In this document: positions 17,771 to 31,640 of the stretch, one piece after another
How positions within the stretch are numbered: the first letter of the stretch is position 1
Layout of the letters: every line of letters begins with the position of its first letter
Source of the DNA: an uncultured Monoglobus sp.
GTDB lineage: Bacteria; Bacillota; Clostridia; Monoglobales; Monoglobaceae
Assembly: GCA_947624775.1 (NCBI GenBank)
Contig: CANQLT010000019.1
Location: forward strand, 1 to 32,324
Reading direction: 5' to 3'
DNA length: 32,324 nucleotides
Notes under the pieces: model-generated
Databases searched by the model: none
Seen by the model: only the letters and a program-made list of their open reading frames with translations
What the model was told of the DNA's origin: nothing
Position numbers and translations under genes: made by a program

Positions 17771-18148
17771 ATGATGACAGCATATGCCGCAAACGGAGCG
17801 GCGGGAGCCCCGGGCGGTTCGTATTCAATGATAATAATGCTGGTTCTGATTCTGGTCGTTTTCTATTTTGTTCTGATAAGACCTCAGAAGAAAAAGGAAA
17901 AAGCGCTCCAGGAGATGATCTCAAACCTTAAGGTAGGAGACGAGGTTGCATCGATCGGCGGTATCCACGGAAAAATCACGAAGATAAAGGATAACCTTTT
18001 CATTCTCGAGAGCGGCGCGGGTACCACGAAGTCATACGTGACTATCGAAAAGAGCGCCATAGCCAGAGTTATAAAGGAAGGCTCGTCAAAACCCGAGGAA
18101 AAAGAGGAAGAAAAACCCGAGGATAAACCCGAAGAAACCAAATCGTAG
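17771..18148 (+). CDS. yajC: YajC, Sec translocon accessory subunit
   Basis: A 125-aa single-pass membrane protein with a transmembrane helix at about 20-38 followed by FVLIRPQKKKEKALQEMISN, the YajC hallmark, and the cytoplasmic EVASIGGIHGKITKIKDN segment. YajC associates with SecD and SecF at the translocon. The C-terminal 25 residues are a low-complexity Glu/Lys/Pro tail (KPEEKEEEKPEDKPEETK), longer than in many relatives. Start ATG 17771 with AAGGAGG upstream. In Clostridia yajC is commonly found immediately upstream of the SCIFF genes, as here. Confidence 0.95.
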   Translation: MMTAYAANGAAGAPGGSYSMIIMLVLILVVFYFVLIRPQKKKEKALQEMISNLKVGDEVASIGGIHGKITKIKDNLFILESGAGTTKSYVTIEKSAIARVIKEGSSKPEEKEEEKPEDKPEETKS

Positions 18149-18232: not shown

Positions 18233-18667
18233 ATGGCAGGCGAGGTAATTCATGCAAAAGAGACGGCGGGCGGCAAAAGCCCGATTGCGGCTGTTGCCGT
18301 CGGTCTGATATTCGGCTTGGCCGTGGCGGTGTTGGCACTGCTTATCATTTCGGCTGCGGCGGTGTTTTACGACATTCCCGAGCATGTGATGAATATTCTG
18401 ATTATCGTCATTTCGGCGGTGTCGATGTTTGTTGCGGGGCTCAAGGCAGCTGCGAAAAATCAAAAAAACGGTTTGCTTATCGGTGTCGTAACGGGATTGC
18501 TATATTCGGCGATCACTCTGGCCGCGGGACTGTTGTTCGGTTCCTCGATCGGGTTTTCGCCCGAGTTCATCGCGGATTTCGCGGTTGCGGCTGCGCTCGG
18601 TGGACTGGGCGGCGTTGCCGGCATCAATATGGCCGGACATAAAAACAGAAAAAGAAAACACAAGTAG
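18233..18667 (+). CDS. TIGR04086-like integral membrane protein of the SCIFF locus
   Basis: A 144-aa protein with four predicted transmembrane helices (about 18-40, 46-67, 76-99 and 112-133), rich in Gly/Ala, with a short basic tail GHKNRKRKHK. It matches in size, topology and place the TIGR04086 family, which to my knowledge is found near scfA/scfB across Clostridia; its role is unknown. It has its own GAGGTG before the ATG at 18233 and is separated from yajC by 84 nt, including a hairpin GGCGGAT-ATC-ATCCGCC (18150-18166) without a T-tract. Confidence 0.8.
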   Translation: MAGEVIHAKETAGGKSPIAAVAVGLIFGLAVAVLALLIISAAAVFYDIPEHVMNILIIVISAVSMFVAGLKAAAKNQKNGLLIGVVTGLLYSAITLAAGLLFGSSIGFSPEFIADFAVAAALGGLGGVAGINMAGHKNRKRKHK

Positions 18668-18699
18668 AAATATAATTTAAGCATAAGGAGAGATTACTA

Positions 18700-18852
18700 A
18701 TGAAAGTTCAAAGAATCAAGACATTAAACAGCGCCACGCTCAAGGAGAGCGCGTGCAAAGGCGGCTGCGGCGAGTGCCAGACCTCGTGCCAGTCGGCCTG
18801 CAAGACCTCGTGCACAGTTGCTAATCAGAAGTGCGAGAATGAGGAAAGATAA
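18700..18852 (+). CDS. scfA: SCIFF ranthipeptide precursor, 50 aa, seven Cys
   Basis: This short gene encodes 50 residues: a leader starting MKVQRIKTLNSATLKES, then a Cys-rich core C19-KGG-C23-GE-C26-QTS-C30-QSA-C34-KTS-C38 and C45. The CQTSCQSACKTSCTVANQ segment is the hallmark of SCIFF peptides (six cysteines in forty-five). Characterised members get a thioether from a Cys sulfur to a Thr carbon (ranthipeptide class), made by the radical-SAM maturase encoded just downstream. The ATG at 18700 has AAGGAG at 18685-18690, 9 nt upstream. There are seven Cys here, one more than the family name implies. Function of the mature peptide is unknown, though it is nearly universal in Clostridia. Confidence 0.96.
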   Translation: MKVQRIKTLNSATLKESACKGGCGECQTSCQSACKTSCTVANQKCENEER

Positions 18853-18886
18853 ATCTTTAAATTTCCGAGCGGAAGTTTAAACGCCC

Positions 18887-18922
18887 GGGCGCTCACACAC
18901 AGTGTGGCGCCCTGTTTATTTT
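18887..18922 (+). terminator. Terminator-like hairpin between scfA and scfB
   Basis: GGGCGC (18887-18892), one bulged T, CACAC, loop ACA, GTGTG and GCGCCC (to 18912) form an 11-bp stem, followed by TGTTTATTTT. It lies 35 nt after the scfA stop and 31 nt before scfB. Partial termination would give more precursor than enzyme. Confidence 0.75.
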
Positions 18923-18953
18923 AATATAATGTAATTAACTTAGGAGAATAAAT

Positions 18954-20333
18954 ATGCTGCATACTTTTGAAATGTTTGACAAATACATCGCCATTGACGT
19001 GAACAGCGGCTGCGTCCACGAGCTGGACAAGCTGAGCTATGACGTGTTGAATTTTCTTGACGTGAAGGGCCTCGACCCCGAGAGCGACGAGGCCAAGTTC
19101 AAAGCGGTAGGCGAGTTCAGAAAAGAATACGATTCCGAGGACGTTTGGGACGTCATCGAGGATATAGCCGAGCTCAAAAAGAACGGAATGCTCTGGGCGG
19201 AGGACGATTTTGAGTATAACAAAGAGCTTAAAAGAAACGCACCTGTAAAGGCGATGTGTTTACACATAAGCCACGACTGCAACCTGCGCTGCAAGTATTG
19301 CTTCGCCGAGGAAGGCGAGTACCATTCGGGCCGGCGAGAGCTGATGAGCGCCGAAACAGGAAAACGCGCGATGGACTATCTGGTGGCGAATTCGGGCAGT
19401 CGTCGCAACCTCGAAGTCGACTTTTTCGGTGGCGAACCGCTGATGAATTTCGAGGCTGTAAAGGAGATAGTTTGCTATGCGAGAGAGCTCGAAAAGAAAT
19501 ATGACAAGGTGTTTCGCTTTACAATAACGACCAATGGAATTTTGCTTGATGAAGAAAAGCTCGCGTACATAAATAAAGAAATGGGAAATATCGTGCTCAG
19601 TATTGACGGCAGAAAAGAGGTAAACGACCGCGTCAGATACAGGGCGGACGGCACGGGCAGCTACGACAGCATAGTGCCTATATTCAAAAAGACCGCCGAA
19701 AGCCGAAATCAGGATAATTATTATGTCCGCGGTACCTTCACGAGATACAATCTCGATTTTTCAAATGACGTGCTGCATCTGGCGGATCTGGGCTTTAAGC
19801 AGATATCGGTGGAGCCTGTGGTATGTGCCGAGGAGACAGATTATTCGCTGCGCGAGGAGGATATGCCGCGTGTTTTTGACGAGTACGAGACCCTGACGCG
19901 GGAATATGTTAAGCGTAAAAAGGACGGTAACGGCTTTAACTTTTTCCATTTCATGATTGATCTTGACGAGGGCCCGTGCGTTATAAAGCGGCTTTCGGGC
20001 TGCGGCTGCGGCTGCGAGTATATTGCTGTCGCGCCGAATGGAGACGTGTATCCCTGTCACCAGTTTGTGGGAACCGAAGAATACAAAATGGGCAGCATTT
20101 ACGACGATAAGGAGCTTGATCGCGATCTGCGAAACGAGTTTGCGGACTGCAATATTTACTCAAAGCCCGACTGCCGCGACTGCTTCGCAAAGTTTTTCTG
20201 CAGCGGCGGCTGCGTAGCCAACGCCTGCCTGATAAACGGCAGTTTAAATAAGCCCCACAAGCTGAGCTGCGAGATGATGCGCAAGCGCCTCGAGTGCAGC
20301 CTCTACGCCAAAGCCGCCCTGGCGGAGGAATAA
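18954..20333 (+). CDS. scfB: SCIFF radical SAM maturase (thioether-forming, SPASM)
   Basis: A 459-aa radical SAM enzyme. The N-terminal ~95 residues form a RiPP recognition-like domain for the leader peptide. The cluster-binding motif is C109-NLR-C113-KY-C116, followed by the SAM motif FFGGEPL (158-164). The C-terminal SPASM region is Cys-rich (C342, C350, C352, C354, C368, C399, C407, C410, C416, C420, C425, C439), for two auxiliary [4Fe-4S] clusters. The family abstracts hydrogen from the SCIFF core and forms a Cys-Thr thioether. It directly follows its precursor scfA. ATG at 18954 with GGAG 12 nt upstream. Neighbouring radical SAM families without SPASM are excluded. Confidence 0.97.
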   Translation: MLHTFEMFDKYIAIDVNSGCVHELDKLSYDVLNFLDVKGLDPESDEAKFKAVGEFRKEYDSEDVWDVIEDIAELKKNGMLWAEDDFEYNKELKRNAPVKAMCLHISHDCNLRCKYCFAEEGEYHSGRRELMSAETGKRAMDYLVANSGSRRNLEVDFFGGEPLMNFEAVKEIVCYARELEKKYDKVFRFTITTNGILLDEEKLAYINKEMGNIVLSIDGRKEVNDRVRYRADGTGSYDSIVPIFKKTAESRNQDNYYVRGTFTRYNLDFSNDVLHLADLGFKQISVEPVVCAEETDYSLREEDMPRVFDEYETLTREYVKRKKDGNGFNFFHFMIDLDEGPCVIKRLSGCGCGCEYIAVAPNGDVYPCHQFVGTEEYKMGSIYDDKELDRDLRNEFADCNIYSKPDCRDCFAKFFCSGGCVANACLINGSLNKPHKLSCEMMRKRLECSLYAKAALAEE

Positions 20334-20473: not shown

Positions 20474-22204
20474 ATGCTAAAAAAATTGCTCCGTCTTATG
20501 TCAAAGACGGACAGAAAATTCGCGTTGTTCACGCCGCTGCTGATCGTCGGCGAGGTGGCTATGGAAACCACCATACCGCTGATGATGGCGCGCATTGTTG
20601 ACGTGGGCATCGCGAATGCCGACGTCGGATATGTGGTGAGGTCGGGCATTATCATGATGCTCATGGCTCTTGTTTCGCTGTGCTTCGGCGCGGGCGCGGC
20701 CCGGACCGCCTCGATGGCCTCGACCGGATTCGCGGCGTCTATCAGAAAGGCGGTGTTCTTCAAGATTCAGGACTTTTCGTTTGGAAACATCGACAAGTTC
20801 AGCACATCGTCGCTCCTGACCCGCCTCACGACCGACATCACAAACATTCAGATGTCGACCATGATGGTTATAAGAACCTGCGTCCGCGCGCCCATGATGT
20901 TCGCTATGGCGCTGTTCATGGCGATCTCGCTCAACGCGCGTCTGGCGCTTATCTTCGCGGTGGCCGTGCCGATAATCTGCGTCACGGTGTTCACCGTGGC
21001 TGTCAAGGCAATGCCCAGGTTCCGCCTGATGCTCAGAAAGATCGACGATCTGAACCGCGTTGTGCAGGAGGATCTTGCGGGTATCCGCGTTGTCAAGGCG
21101 TTTGTGCGCGAAAGCTACGAGGACGAGAAGTTCAACACTATCACAAACGAGGTACGTGACGCCCAGGTATCAGCCGAAAAGCTTATTATAATCAACATGC
21201 CTGTTATGCAGATGGTTATTTACGCCTGCATCGTCGCGATCCTCTGGTTTGGCGGCAACATGGTTATCGTCGGCGGAATGCAGACCGGCGAGCTTATAAG
21301 CTTTATAACCTACGTCACCCAGATACTTATGTCGCTGATGATGATTTCAATGATATTTATACAACTGGTAAATTCCAAGGCCAGCGGCGATCGTATCTGC
21401 GAGATACTCGACGAGGAGCTCGAGATCAAGGACGACAACAACAACGAAAATCTGACCCTCGACGACGGTTCGATCAGGTTCGAGGACGTGGCCTTCAGCT
21501 ATCAGCATGACATAATGAACTGCGCTGTGCGCCATATTAATCTTGACATCAAGTCGGGCGAGACCGTGGGCATTATCGGCGGCACGGGCTCGTCAAAGAG
21601 CTCGCTTGTTCAGCTTATCCCGAGGCTTTACGACGTGACCGCAGGCCGCGTTATAGTCGGCGGACACGACGTGCGCGAGTACAAGCTCGACGTGCTCAGA
21701 AATGACGTTTCGATGGTGCTCCAAAAGAACGTGCTGTTCAGCGGCACGATAGCCGACAACCTGCGCTGGGGCGACGAGCACGCCACGCAGGAGCAGATAA
21801 CCGAGGCCTGCCGCGACGCGTGCGCCGACGAGTTTATATCGGGTTTTCCCGATGGCTACAGGACCGACCTCGGTCAGGGCGGCGTGAACGTTTCGGGCGG
21901 CCAGAAGCAGAGGCTGTGTATCGCCAGAGCGCTGCTTAAAAAGCCGAAAATAATCATTCTCGACGACAGCACCAGCGCGGTCGATACCGAGACCGACGCG
22001 CGCATCAGAAGCGCGTTTAAGACCAAGCTCAAGGGCACGACCACTATAATAATCGCCCAGCGCATCAGCTCGATCGAGGACGCCGACAAAATAATCGTCA
22101 TGGACAACGGACGCATCAGCGCCCAGGGCACCCATGAGCAGCTGCTCGAGAGCAGCGATATATACCGCGAGATCTACGAATCTCAGCAGAAAGGAGCTGC
22201 GTAA
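20474..22204 (+). CDS. ABC exporter half-transporter A (degenerate Walker B)
   Basis: A 576-aa half-transporter: a six-helix ABC transmembrane domain (about 15-310) fused to a nucleotide-binding domain. Walker A GGTGSSKSS (369-377), signature VSGGQ (473-477), Walker B IIILDD (493-498). The catalytic Glu after Walker B is replaced by Asp (D498), as in the degenerate half of heterodimeric exporters such as TM287/288 and BmrCD. It overlaps nothing but ends 2 nt before its partner gene. Start ATG 20474 with GGAGGTG at 20460-20466. Such pairs export drugs, lipids or peptides; here SCIFF locus products are a possible but unproven substrate. A minor oddity is Ser in place of Gly in Walker A (GSSKS). 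Confidence 0.93.
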   Translation: MLKKLLRLMSKTDRKFALFTPLLIVGEVAMETTIPLMMARIVDVGIANADVGYVVRSGIIMMLMALVSLCFGAGAARTASMASTGFAASIRKAVFFKIQDFSFGNIDKFSTSSLLTRLTTDITNIQMSTMMVIRTCVRAPMMFAMALFMAISLNARLALIFAVAVPIICVTVFTVAVKAMPRFRLMLRKIDDLNRVVQEDLAGIRVVKAFVRESYEDEKFNTITNEVRDAQVSAEKLIIINMPVMQMVIYACIVAILWFGGNMVIVGGMQTGELISFITYVTQILMSLMMISMIFIQLVNSKASGDRICEILDEELEIKDDNNNENLTLDDGSIRFEDVAFSYQHDIMNCAVRHINLDIKSGETVGIIGGTGSSKSSLVQLIPRLYDVTAGRVIVGGHDVREYKLDVLRNDVSMVLQKNVLFSGTIADNLRWGDEHATQEQITEACRDACADEFISGFPDGYRTDLGQGGVNVSGGQKQRLCIARALLKKPKIIILDDSTSAVDTETDARIRSAFKTKLKGTTTIIIAQRISSIEDADKIIVMDNGRISAQGTHEQLLESSDIYREIYESQQKGAA

Positions 22205-22205
22205 T

Positions 22206-24110
22206 ATGCCTCCGGGACATAAAGGATTCAAAAAACCCAAAAACACCAAAAAGACCGCGGCGCGCCTGTTCTCGTATCTTGCGAAGTACAAGCCGCAGCT
22301 GGTTCTGGTTATCATCGGCGTTATAGTTTCAAGCGCCGCCAACGTCTACGGCACGTATATGCTGAAGCCGATGCTGGACGACTACATAGTGCCACTTATC
22401 GGAGCCGAGAACCCGCCTCTTACGACGTTCCTTGTGAATATCCTGCTGCTGCTCGGCGCGTACATAGTCGGCGCGTTCGCCTCATGGATGTATAACCGAA
22501 TCATGGTAAATATCTCAAGCGGCGTGCTCTACACCGTGAGAAACGACCTGTTCACCAAGATGCAAAAACTCCCCCTAAAATACTTCGACACCCACACACA
22601 CGGCGACGTTATGAGCCGCTATACCAACGACGCAGACGCAATCAGAATGATGATGTCCCAGAGCGTGCCTCAGCTTGTCTCGTCGTTTTTGACCGTTATC
22701 TCGGTGTTTATCATGATGATAGTGATAAGCCCCGTGCTGACGCTGCTGGTTCTGGTTATGCTCGTCATAATATTCTTCGTTATCAGCTTTGTCGGCAAGC
22801 GCTCCGCCTACTTCTTCAGAAAGCAGCAGAATGCTATCGGCGCGGTCAACGGCTATGTTGAGGAAATGATCGAGGGACAAAAGGTCGTCAAAGTTTTCTG
22901 CCATGAGGACAAATCCAAAGAGAAATTCTCGAATATAAACGAGGCGCTGCGCGGAGCCTCGGCCAACGCCAACACCTTTGCCAACGTGCTGTTCCCGATT
23001 ATGGGCAACCTGTCGTATCTGCACTACGCCGTGACCGCTATGGTCGGCGCCGCTCTGACGATACACAGCGGCAACACCGGCGCGGGCTTTTTTGCGCTGA
23101 CGATTGGTTCGCTGACCGCGTTTTTGCAGTACACCCGCTCATTCTCGCAGCCGATAACCCAGATGTCGCAGCAGGTCAACGCCATACTTAACGCTATGGC
23201 GGGCGCCGAGCGCATATTCCAAGTCATAGATGAGAAGGCGGAGGTCGACGACGGCAAGGCGACCATCGCCAGAGTGGTGATAGAGCCCGACGGAAACATA
23301 ATTGAGGTCAATCACCGCACGGGCCGCTGGGCGTGGAAGCGCCCCGGCAAGGACGGCAATGTCATCTACAACGAGGTTCGCGGCGAGGTCGAGTTCAAAA
23401 ACGTCACATTCAGCTACGACGGCAAAAAGACGGTTTTAAAGGACATCTCGCTTGTGGCCGAGCCGGGAGAGAAGATAGCGTTCGTCGGCTCGACGGGCGC
23501 GGGCAAGACCACGATAACCAACCTGATAAACAGGTTCTACGACGTGCCCGACGGCAAGATCACATATGACGGAATAACGATAAACAAGATCAAAAAGGAC
23601 GACCTGCGCCGCTCCCTCGGCATGGTTCTGCAGGATACGCACCTGTTCACCGGCACGGTCATGGACAACATCAGATACGGCCGTCTTGACGCCAGCGACG
23701 AGGACTGCATATACGCGGCCAAGATCGCCAACGCCCACTGGTTCATCACCCACCTGCCCGATGGCTACAACACGATGCTGACGGCGGACGGCGAGAATCT
23801 GAGCCAGGGCCAGAGACAGCTGCTGGCGATAGCCAGAGCGGCCGTGGCCGACCCGCCCGCGCTTATTCTGGACGAGGCGACCAGCTCGATCGACACCAGA
23901 ACCGAAAAGATAATCGAAAAAGGCATGGATGGTTTGATGAAGGGTAGGACGGTGTTCGTCATCGCTCACAGGCTTTCAACCGTTAGAAACGCCGATATGA
24001 TAATCGTGCTCGAGCACGGCCAAATCATAGAGAAGGGCAACCACGAGCAGCTTATAGCCCAAAAAGGCAAATATTACCAGCTCTACACCGGCGCCTTTGA
24101 ATTGGATTAA
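22206..24110 (+). CDS. ABC exporter half-transporter B (canonical Walker B)
   Basis: A 634-aa partner half-transporter: six transmembrane helices (about 30-315), a 40-residue insertion before the nucleotide-binding domain (about 352-393), Walker A GSTGAGKTT (428-436), signature LSQGQ (532-536), Walker B ALILDEATS with the catalytic E557. The signature has Q for G, so the composite site formed with subunit A is degenerate while the other site is complete, the asymmetric heterodimer design. The start is the ATG at 22206, with AAGGAG at 22191-22196; an earlier in-frame GTG at 22134 lies inside the upstream gene and is rejected. The gene is closed by the terminator at 24121-24163. Confidence 0.94.
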   Translation: MPPGHKGFKKPKNTKKTAARLFSYLAKYKPQLVLVIIGVIVSSAANVYGTYMLKPMLDDYIVPLIGAENPPLTTFLVNILLLLGAYIVGAFASWMYNRIMVNISSGVLYTVRNDLFTKMQKLPLKYFDTHTHGDVMSRYTNDADAIRMMMSQSVPQLVSSFLTVISVFIMMIVISPVLTLLVLVMLVIIFFVISFVGKRSAYFFRKQQNAIGAVNGYVEEMIEGQKVVKVFCHEDKSKEKFSNINEALRGASANANTFANVLFPIMGNLSYLHYAVTAMVGAALTIHSGNTGAGFFALTIGSLTAFLQYTRSFSQPITQMSQQVNAILNAMAGAERIFQVIDEKAEVDDGKATIARVVIEPDGNIIEVNHRTGRWAWKRPGKDGNVIYNEVRGEVEFKNVTFSYDGKKTVLKDISLVAEPGEKIAFVGSTGAGKTTITNLINRFYDVPDGKITYDGITINKIKKDDLRRSLGMVLQDTHLFTGTVMDNIRYGRLDASDEDCIYAAKIANAHWFITHLPDGYNTMLTADGENLSQGQRQLLAIARAAVADPPALILDEATSSIDTRTEKIIEKGMDGLMKGRTVFVIAHRLSTVRNADMIIVLEHGQIIEKGNHEQLIAQKGKYYQLYTGAFELD

Positions 24111-27941: not shown

Positions 27942-30900
27942 TTAAAAATTTAAATTCGGTTTTGCCAGGGGTTTTAAGCTGTCCGTGCCGTCCCAAGCAA
28001 ATATCTTATATATAGCGGCGTTTGGCGCGGCGCCGACCGATATTCCGGTAAGCTCCGATCCCGCGGGAACGGTCACGCGCGTCGGCTCAGAGATAGAGAT
28101 CAGCGCGCCGTTTTGGTCATAAGCCGCGACGATTATGTCGGTGTCAATATCCGCGTCTGAAATGTTCGCGATATCGACCGAGGCTGCGCCATCTGAGACC
28201 GTACTGCCTGTTATAGCAAGCGGCATACTCGCATCAACGACACTTTTGCCGATCGTGAAATATTGGTCCGAATCGATCGCCAGCGGCCTTCCGTCGAGAT
28301 ACAGCTGATATGTGTATTTTCCTTCGGGCAGTCCCATTGCGCCGATATCAAATACACAGCGGTCGTCCGAATCCGGAACCGTCGAAACGCTTGCGACCTC
28401 ATCGCCCAAAATATCGCCGGTTAGACCGATCGTATCAACGGTGAAGATCTTAAGTCCGATTTCCGAGCCGCTCAGATTGAAGCCGTTTACCTCAAGCCGT
28501 TCGCTGTCGCCGCGTCCGATAATATTGCTGCTTTCGGCAAACGCGACGCCGCGCTTGTCGGTCAGAGGAAGGGTAGTTTGGTCCTCTCCGTTTACGAGTA
28601 TGTGGACTTTGTTATTTTTAAAGTTTTGTATGCCGCTGAAGTCGAAAGTGAATTTGTAAGTGTTTCCGAATGCGTCAGAACTGTCCGCTTTAACCGCTGT
28701 CATGGGGATCTCGTCTGTGCTGTCTCCGTATTCGAAACGAGCCGTGATCTTGTCGTTTTCGGATATGTTTATTGCGTCGATATAGGTTTCAAATTTATCG
28801 GAGCCGACAAGTATTTCGCTGTATTGTGTCGACGGATCGTTGATCATTGCCTTGTCGGTCGCGAAAAACGGTTCTGTGCCGATTATCGTCTCTCTTGAAG
28901 CGATGCCCTGATTTTGAAGAGACTCGTTATAATATATGATCTGGTATTCCTTGCCGGGCTTGGCGATATTCTTAAAATACCCGCTGTATATATACAGTCC
29001 GCCGAAGTTCGCTTTTTCAAGCTCGGACAGCTGCACGGCAGCCGCAACTGTCGGATATTCGTTTGGGTCATCGGAATACTCGAGCAGTTCGATCTCACCC
29101 TCGGTGAAGTTTATGGGATTGTCGATCATAAAGCTTATATCGCTTGACGGCGCGCAGTACGTTATAGATGTTTCGTCGTCGCGCACTATTGTCGCTACGT
29201 TCAAACGTGAGTACAGATAATTGTATGGCACGTTTTCGTCGACGACAAATATCTCAAACTCCGCGGTTCCGAATGTCGTCACGGCCGAAAGCGTAACTGT
29301 GTCGCCGCCGAGCGCGCTGAGGTCAACATTTTCGAAGTCCGCTTTAAACGAGTTGAGCCAGACAGGTGTTTTGTCAAATTGTGTGAGACTTGATCCGTCG
29401 GAGCGTATGTTCTCGCCTTCGGCGATAACGCTGTCGTCGGTGATCAGGCGGAGTGATATAATATCTTCGGGTTTCGCCATTGTGCCGCACTCCAGTCGAA
29501 ATGTCATATCTTTTATCTCTTTTACTGACGATGCCAAATATGTGAATTCGTAGTTCGTGTATATCCGCGCCGGTTTAATGTATTCCGGAAGGCTGATCTC
29601 GATGAGCCTTGAGGAATCATCAGGCTTCAGAAAGACAGTGCCGTTTATCGCATTCAAGTCACTTATAACAAGCTCGCCTATGCCGAGTTTGTCGATTGTG
29701 AGCGTTCCGACCTCGTCGGTGTTTTTATAAACGGGATATGTTCCGGCTGCCAGATTCTCGACAATTATATCAAATGTGTTTACGTCTGTTCTGTTAATAT
29801 CAATGATCGTCGGCACGTCTTTTGTTTCTAATATGCGCGAAGTCGAAGGGCCCGAAAACTCATGGCCCTTATAGGAATGAAGTTCAAGGTAATAATTCAT
29901 TCCGACTGTCGGAGCCTTGCTCAGTTTAACGCTGTATAGCGCTTCGGAGGGCGCGATTGTCACGTCGTTCGGAGCATCCGATCTGCCTATTTCGTTCCCG
30001 TTCTCGTCGCATAAGGTAATGTAAATGTCGTTCATGTCCTCGACATAAGAGTCAAATCCCAAGTTTACGTTTATGCTCTTTGTGGCGGGCGTCAGATTTT
30101 CATGATTCACGTAAAGCTGTGACGGAATATAGTATTCGCCGATCAAAATATGTCTCGGGAGCAGCGTGAGAGTCTCTCCGTCCGTAAAGTGAATGGTTGT
30201 TTCAAGCAGATATTGTCCTGTTTTCGGCACGCTCGGAGTTGGAATATTGAAGTTGACAAGCGCGCTGCCATCATAGTATGATCCGGGGAATGAAGTCGTT
30301 TCGGCGATAGTTTTTCCGTCGTCGGCCTTGATGGTAATATCGGCCGCTGCGATGCTTTTGTCACTAAACGGATAATTGCTAATGCTGAAATTATATTTAA
30401 TATTCATGGTGTCGCTAAAGGTTGAATAATAAAGCCGCTCTACGGCATAGTCGTAATAATTAAACTCAATGGGTCCGACCTCATGGCCGTCTAAATAAAG
30501 ATACGCGATATACTCGCCCGGCTTAATGATCAAACCGGTAGTGCCGCTTACAGAGCTTATGTTGATTCCCTCGATCGTGACCTGATCGGGTCCGCCAGTT
30601 GCGTACTCGGGATATAATTCATAGTTTAAGCCCATCATCGGAATGAGCTCATCGCTATTTTTTTCATACACCTTTATATACCGATCGTATAGAGATCTCG
30701 AGATAGTGATCGGTTCGGAAAAGGGGATCCGGCATTTAAATGTTCGGGACTCGGTGTACGATCCGCAGATCTCAGCGGGTCCGTCCTGAACGGCGCTATG
30801 ATGTTCGGGCTCCGTGATTGTCAGCGGGATCGAGCCCGAGAAAACGACCTCACTTGTGTCGTTTACGTAGTCGCGATATTCAAGCAGCTCGGAAATGCTG

Positions 30901-31640
30901 TATTTTCCGGGCTTGATATCGGCCGAGTAGTCAAGACCGCCTCTTGTCAAATAAATTTTGTTTTCTGCCTCGGATTTAAGGCAGCAGGGCGCTGAGGGGA
31001 CAGCGTTTTCGTCGCTTACCGAGATATTGTAGCTGTCGCCGTAGCTTACGGTTATTTCATTTGTGCCGTCCGTCGATGAAATTTTCACGGGAGTTTTATC
31101 AGAATGCTCAACGTTTAAAGTGAAATTGCCCATAAACCGCGCTTTGTCATAATCGTCATAGCCGCGGTTTGACATATCTATCTCCGCTCTGTACTCGCCC
31201 TCGGGGATATCCCGGGGAATATAAAAGCAGAGACTGTATTTTAAATTGTTGTTTTCGCCGGTCGTCTCAACGATACCGAGATTTTTGTAGAATATCTCGT
31301 ATGTCTCTGTGCCGCTGAGTGTGAATTTGCCGTTTACCTGAGCGCGGGGCCAATAGGTTGTGTCGGCCTCAAGCGTGTAATTCGCGTCGTCAATGATAAG
31401 CTGTCCGCCCTGCGGAGCGCTGTATGTTCCGTCGTTGACCGTTATGATGGCGCTGTGAACGGCTCTTGCGGCCGCTTCGGCCTCGGGCGCGTTTGGGGTG
31501 TTTTCGTCGGGGTTGTTTGTGTACTGCTGCGGGATCGCCGAATTTGCGTCTATGTTTGTCTCATCCGCGGCGTAGGCCGGACTGAACGCGCATAGCGAAG
31601 CAAAGGCGGCAATCAGGATTGCTGCGATTTTTCTTTTCAT
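27942..31640 (-). CDS. Large secreted protein of unknown function, Ig/FN3-like
   Basis: A 1232-aa exported protein. The signal peptide is residues 1-24, with cleavage after SPAYA. The mature part is acidic, has few Cys, and shows no catalytic motif I recognise; alternating beta-strand-like stretches of about 80-100 residues suggest a chain of immunoglobulin- or fibronectin-like domains. The last ~85 residues (IIVAAYDQNGALISI ... FAWDGTDSLKPLAKPNL) resemble the C-terminal domain of the neighbouring PT-repeat protein. No SLH, LPXTG or dockerin anchor is visible. It follows the PT-repeat gene by 25 nt, with GAGGT before its ATG, and ends in an intrinsic terminator. An adhesin or surface-scaffold role is only an inference. 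Confidence 0.85.
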   Translation of the reverse strand: MKRKIAAILIAAFASLCAFSPAYAADETNIDANSAIPQQYTNNPDENTPNAPEAEAAARAVHSAIITVNDGTYSAPQGGQLIIDDANYTLEADTTYWPRAQVNGKFTLSGTETYEIFYKNLGIVETTGENNNLKYSLCFYIPRDIPEGEYRAEIDMSNRGYDDYDKARFMGNFTLNVEHSDKTPVKISSTDGTNEITVSYGDSYNISVSDENAVPSAPCCLKSEAENKIYLTRGGLDYSADIKPGKYSISELLEYRDYVNDTSEVVFSGSIPLTITEPEHHSAVQDGPAEICGSYTESRTFKCRIPFSEPITISRSLYDRYIKVYEKNSDELIPMMGLNYELYPEYATGGPDQVTIEGINISSVSGTTGLIIKPGEYIAYLYLDGHEVGPIEFNYYDYAVERLYYSTFSDTMNIKYNFSISNYPFSDKSIAAADITIKADDGKTIAETTSFPGSYYDGSALVNFNIPTPSVPKTGQYLLETTIHFTDGETLTLLPRHILIGEYYIPSQLYVNHENLTPATKSINVNLGFDSYVEDMNDIYITLCDENGNEIGRSDAPNDVTIAPSEALYSVKLSKAPTVGMNYYLELHSYKGHEFSGPSTSRILETKDVPTIIDINRTDVNTFDIIVENLAAGTYPVYKNTDEVGTLTIDKLGIGELVISDLNAINGTVFLKPDDSSRLIEISLPEYIKPARIYTNYEFTYLASSVKEIKDMTFRLECGTMAKPEDIISLRLITDDSVIAEGENIRSDGSSLTQFDKTPVWLNSFKADFENVDLSALGGDTVTLSAVTTFGTAEFEIFVVDENVPYNYLYSRLNVATIVRDDETSITYCAPSSDISFMIDNPINFTEGEIELLEYSDDPNEYPTVAAAVQLSELEKANFGGLYIYSGYFKNIAKPGKEYQIIYYNESLQNQGIASRETIIGTEPFFATDKAMINDPSTQYSEILVGSDKFETYIDAINISENDKITARFEYGDSTDEIPMTAVKADSSDAFGNTYKFTFDFSGIQNFKNNKVHILVNGEDQTTLPLTDKRGVAFAESSNIIGRGDSERLEVNGFNLSGSEIGLKIFTVDTIGLTGDILGDEVASVSTVPDSDDRCVFDIGAMGLPEGKYTYQLYLDGRPLAIDSDQYFTIGKSVVDASMPLAITGSTVSDGAASVDIANISDADIDTDIIVAAYDQNGALISISEPTRVTVPAGSELTGISVGAAPNAAIYKIFAWDGTDSLKPLAKPNLNF

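Follow-up and report, generated by a model that had tools for sequence, protein, structure and literature searches.

A SCIFF locus in an uncultured Monoglobus species with a seventh, leader-side cysteine in its precursor

The SCIFF locus and its genomic context

The window analysed here is a stretch of 32,324 nucleotides from an uncultured Monoglobus sp. (assembly GCA_947624775.1, contig CANQLT010000019.1). By direct reading, an ATG-started open reading frame at 18700-18852 on the forward strand encodes the 50-residue peptide MKVQRIKTLNSATLKESACKGGCGECQTSCQSACKTSCTVANQKCENEER, with cysteines at positions 19, 23, 26, 30, 34, 38 and 45. The features of the locus are as follows.

17771..18148, forward: yajC, preprotein translocase subunit, conserved neighbour (TIGR00739, 86.1 bits; synteny)
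18233..18667, forward: TIGR04086/DUF3792 membrane protein, conserved neighbour (TIGR04086, 78 bits; PF12670; synteny)
18686..18699, forward: Shine-Dalgarno-like region, AAGGAGA about 8 bases before the ATG of the SCIFF gene (direct sequence reading)
18700..18852, forward: SCIFF (ScfA) precursor, 50 residues, seven cysteines (TIGR03973, PF13165)
18700..18759, forward: leader, residues 1-20, with the RRE-recognition segment RIKTLNxATLK and a variable linker containing Cys19, codon 18754-18756 (alignment to the CteA leader in PDB 5wgg_B; column conservation; core boundary according to PMC8326336)
18760..18852, forward: core/follower GGCGECQTSCQSACKTSCTVANQKCENEER, six canonical cysteines, with Cys34 the predicted donor and Thr36 the predicted acceptor (SCQSACKTSC, the same in all 174 unique homologues; CteA Cys32-Thr34, PMC8326336, PMC8172795)
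18887..18912, forward: stable hairpin followed by a T-rich tract, terminator- or attenuator-like
18954..20333, forward: ScfB, radical SAM/SPASM SCIFF maturase, 459 residues (TIGR03974; CteB, 5wgg_A)

The peptide scores 79.6 bits against TIGR03973 (curated cut-off 50, E 1.1e-22), far above chance, and 78.6 bits against PF13165 (cut-off 27). Six of its cysteines (Cys23, Cys26, Cys30, Cys34, Cys38 and Cys45) lie in the conserved C-terminal region of about 45 residues, with the extra Cys19 upstream, and a gene for a TIGR03974 radical SAM maturase starts after a gap of 101 bases. The gene at 18700-18852 is a real SCIFF gene of the standard clostridial type, beside its crosslinking enzyme, and the only one in its genome. 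An earlier note on this DNA had named the family, the seven cysteines and the adjacent maturase correctly; its remark that so short a gene is easily missed agrees with PMC5300114.

ScfB scores 681.7 bits against TIGR03974 (cut-off 425) and also matches PF04055 and PF13186. It contains the radical SAM CxxxCxxC motif and the SPASM cysteines; C109, C113, C116, C350, C368, C407, C410, C416 and C420 are kept in at least 172 of 173 maturases. The closest solved structure is CteB of Clostridium thermocellum (5wgg_A), aligned over the whole length (E 2.7e-178). Against the PapB model NF047865, ScfB reaches 281 bits where 340 are required.

The gene order in the window, yajC - TIGR04086 - SCIFF - ScfB, is the usual context of the family. 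Among 81 longer loci, ScfB adjoins SCIFF in 80, yajC lies at most 7 kb from SCIFF in 54, and BLAST detects a TIGR04086 homologue in 13; the order holds in the loci that have both neighbours. Downstream, an ABC exporter pair is encoded at 20474-24110, but it does not belong to the SCIFF system and was rejected as a candidate SCIFF exporter: no peptidase domain is present, and the pair is not a consistent neighbour of SCIFF, being absent from that place even in a second species of the genus (G002/L223). A promoter scan gave nothing better than shuffled sequences. For a frame of 1232 residues further along, at 27942-31640 on the reverse strand, no NCBIfam model reached E 1e-10.

The 101 bases separating SCIFF from ScfB (18853-18953) include a G+C-rich hairpin with a T-rich tract after it, and for the segment 18850-18953 the folding energy is −32.6 kcal/mol (z −4.8). 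With strict criteria, terminator-like hairpins were found in 135 of the 173 homologous gaps, whereas mononucleotide shuffles gave 10.8; the count of 135 is a lower bound, since the search missed the bulged copy in the window itself. The natural reading is that the hairpin would act as a partial terminator, keeping the precursor in excess; a recurrent structure of this kind would account for the excess of precursor over enzyme.

Position of Cys19

Positions are counted here from the first core cysteine (Cys23 in the window), so that residue 19 is at −4. When homologues are aligned on this cysteine, conservation is seen in the leader recognition segment (HIKTLN...L) and in the core, but not in the intervening stretch. 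Cys19 lies in this hypervariable linker, four residues before the first core cysteine and upstream of the conserved Gly-Gly. Among 174 unique sequences, position −1 is always Gly and positions +6 to +15 are invariant, while the −4 column contains Lys (76), Ala (39), Cys (13), Val (12), Gln (9), Glu (8), Ser (7) and others. In the alignment to 5wgg_B, the equivalent of Cys19 is Lys17 of CteA. The 21 residues of CteA in that crystal are described as the leader followed by GGC, the three residues that open the core (PMC8326336). As the CteA core is assigned to begin at the Gly-Gly, Cys19 belongs to the leader; by alignment it is outside the invariant core, and not within it as the earlier note had placed it.

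The Gly-Gly itself might suggest leader cleavage of the double-glycine, C39 type. This candidate was rejected: the Gly-Gly is conserved, but position −4 is usually not hydrophobic, and there is no C39 peptidase among the nearby proteins scanned.

Distribution and history of Cys19

The seventh cysteine is not a family norm, as had been suspected from the window alone. It is found in none of 85 loci of the phylum sample. An exact DNA pattern for Cys19, which may miss several per cent because its fixed positions +1, +2 and +5 vary in a few unique sequences out of 174, matched one of 398 phylum-sample genomes, the window's own; SCIFF is present in 319 genomes of a phylum sample of the same size. 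The same pattern matched 14 of 391 class-sample genomes, eight of them from the genus of the window.

Within that genus, Cys19 is fixed (12 of 12 species), whereas Ala takes its place in sister genera of the family that share its SAxKGG linker. The residue was acquired on the stem of the genus. On a tree of 120 maturase rows, the Cys19 label requires nine changes, at least eight of them on well supported branches; Cys19 is rare but recurrent, with at least eight to nine independent gains. Relatives also carry single leader cysteines elsewhere, at −5, −8 and −13, and of the 80 closest loci ten have seven cysteines, the extra one being at −4 in six. Cys19 is kept across the 12 species though maturase identity drops to 70%, and, given this conservation, it may be under selection. 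The seventh cysteine is genuine and genus-specific, yet leader-side and recurrent.

Two other loci (L217, G590:C161:1-12000, frame near 6.8-7.1 kb; L218, G743:C18:308000-322000) have two-core precursors upstream of ScfB: single frames of 87-88 residues with two complete leader-core units in tandem. TIGR03973 matches each frame twice (128-129 bits), and both units carry Cys at −4. The literature searched contained no report of a multicore SCIFF.

The predicted thioether crosslink and the probable fate of Cys19

In characterised SCIFFs a single thioether starts from Cys32 and ends at Thr37 in vitro or, in vivo, at the gamma carbon of Thr34 (PMC8326336, PMC8172795), and only one of the six core cysteines is crosslinked (PMC8326336). 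The window counterparts of CteA Cys32, Thr34 and Thr37 are Cys34, Thr36 and Thr39; the peptide therefore contains the ranthipeptide donor and acceptor residues, and the thioether itself is predicted. CteA Cys32 and Thr34 correspond to +11 and +13, both invariant among homologues. Over 201 homologue rows the Thr36 position never varies, whereas 15 rows have Gly at the Thr39 position; conservation thus favours Cys32-Thr34 over Cys32-Thr37 as the family-wide crosslink. The glycine-bearing homologues (L013, L016, L018, L022, L059, L061, L065, L105, L137, L169, L170, L184, L214, L217 and L218) read CGVANQ or CGIANQ instead of CTVANQ.

Transposing the CteA/CteB reaction to the window, the RRE domain of ScfB would bind the N-terminal leader (RIKTLN...LK), and ScfB would form a thioether between Cys34 and the Thr36 gamma carbon, within the invariant core. 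The crosslinked peptide would later be processed and exported. Cys19 would leave with the leader or remain as a free thiol, with no new crosslink; most likely it is unmodified, the normal crosslink is formed, and Cys19 would be lost upon leader removal. Very probably, then, this is an ordinary SCIFF ranthipeptide locus to which Cys19 adds no crosslink. Because Cys19 sits in the variable region ahead of the core, the seventh cysteine probably has little or no effect on the finished product.

Alternatively, Cys19 could have a role while the peptide is being matured. Together with a genus-specific maturase residue, Cys352, it would serve as a temporary ligand or redox partner close to the auxiliary [4Fe-4S] cluster, in which one site is left open for a peptide cysteine. 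In CteA, Cys21 (the counterpart of Cys23) is able to make contact with this open iron site (PMC8326336); Cys19 precedes that residue by four positions. The maturase motif of the genus, GC(350)GC(352)GC(354)EY (GCGCGCEY, window 20001-20015), has two cysteines beyond the near-invariant Cys350. Position 352 is Cys in 12 of 12 species of the genus and Ala in the sister genera (six rows). The maturase A352C and the peptide A19C changes fall on the same stem branch; Cys352 is also present in two Cys19 carriers, L029 and L051. Column 352 is among 13 maturase columns where the genus is uniform for a residue that the sisters lack, and it is one of only seven of these in which each side is fixed. Across the family, however, Cys352 occurs without Cys19 in 20 rows, and Cys19 without Cys352 in nine. 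When 1391 maturase residue states were tested for association with Cys19 on eight to nine independent pairs, none was significant (best about 3 to 4.5 net pairs), and Cys352 ranked 25th, with about two concordant pairs. The link seen in the genus thus breaks down across the family and is a lead, not evidence; we consider a maturation role unlikely. It is very unlikely that Cys19 and Cys352 co-evolved into a functionally distinct subtype, in which they would alter the contact between cluster and peptide in catalysis or add a second modification.

The earlier note had suggested that the extra cysteine could give a second thioether; the genus would then make a two-ring SCIFF. PapB-type ranthipeptide maturases can form several thioethers (PMC8172795), Cys19 is fixed across the genus, and Glu25 is invariant there, Glu being a residue used by QhpD-type enzymes (PMC8326336). 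Throughout the genus, however, Cys19 is followed by K-G-G-C-G-E. Positions +2 to +5 from it contain neither Thr nor Asp nor Asn, and hence no acceptor for a second thioether at any spacing known for this enzyme group; three residues upstream of Cys19, Glu, Lys or Asn occurs within the genus, so no acceptor is fixed on that side either. With Cys19 on the leader side of the Gly-Gly and a single crosslinked cysteine in characterised SCIFFs, a second ring in the mature peptide is most improbable. A disulfide or metal site between Cys19 and a core cysteine in the secreted peptide (C19-x3-C23), the latter being the other use that the note proposed, would extend the C-x3-C ladder of the core, but it is hardly credible, as the leader would have to be retained, position 19 is hypervariable across the family, and the neighbouring genes give no sign of a metal function.

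Function and comparison with known systems

The function of SCIFF had been described as unknown, which is too strong: according to the account in PMC8102284, citing Chen 2020, disruption of the precursor and maturase genes in Clostridium beijerinckii lowered expression of sporulation genes and raised that of the agr locus, which links SCIFF to sporulation and Agr signalling in that species. By analogy, the mature SCIFF of the window would take part in cell signalling and sporulation control. Considered as an ordinary SCIFF locus, the 'seven-cysteine SCIFF' has a lineage-specific leader cysteine and represents no new product class, a modest finding; useful by-products are the conservation-based crosslink assignment and the recurrent hairpin between precursor and maturase.

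Freyrasin (PapA/PapB) is likewise a ranthipeptide made by a radical SAM/SPASM enzyme (PMC8172795), but it uses Cys-x3-Asp motifs, which the window SCIFF does not have. In the thermocellin system of C. thermocellum (CteA/CteB, PDB 5wgg), CteA residues 1-21 align with the window leader up to the first core cysteine, and CteB aligns end to end with the window maturase. CteA has Lys17 at the position of Cys19, and CteB has Ser and His where the window maturase has Cys352 and Cys354. The locus agrees with the SCIFF family (TIGR03973/PF13165) and its maturase ScfB (TIGR03974) in scores above the curated cut-offs, in the adjacency of the two genes and in the yajC/TIGR04086 context; the family has six cysteines whereas the window peptide has seven, the extra one lying outside the core.
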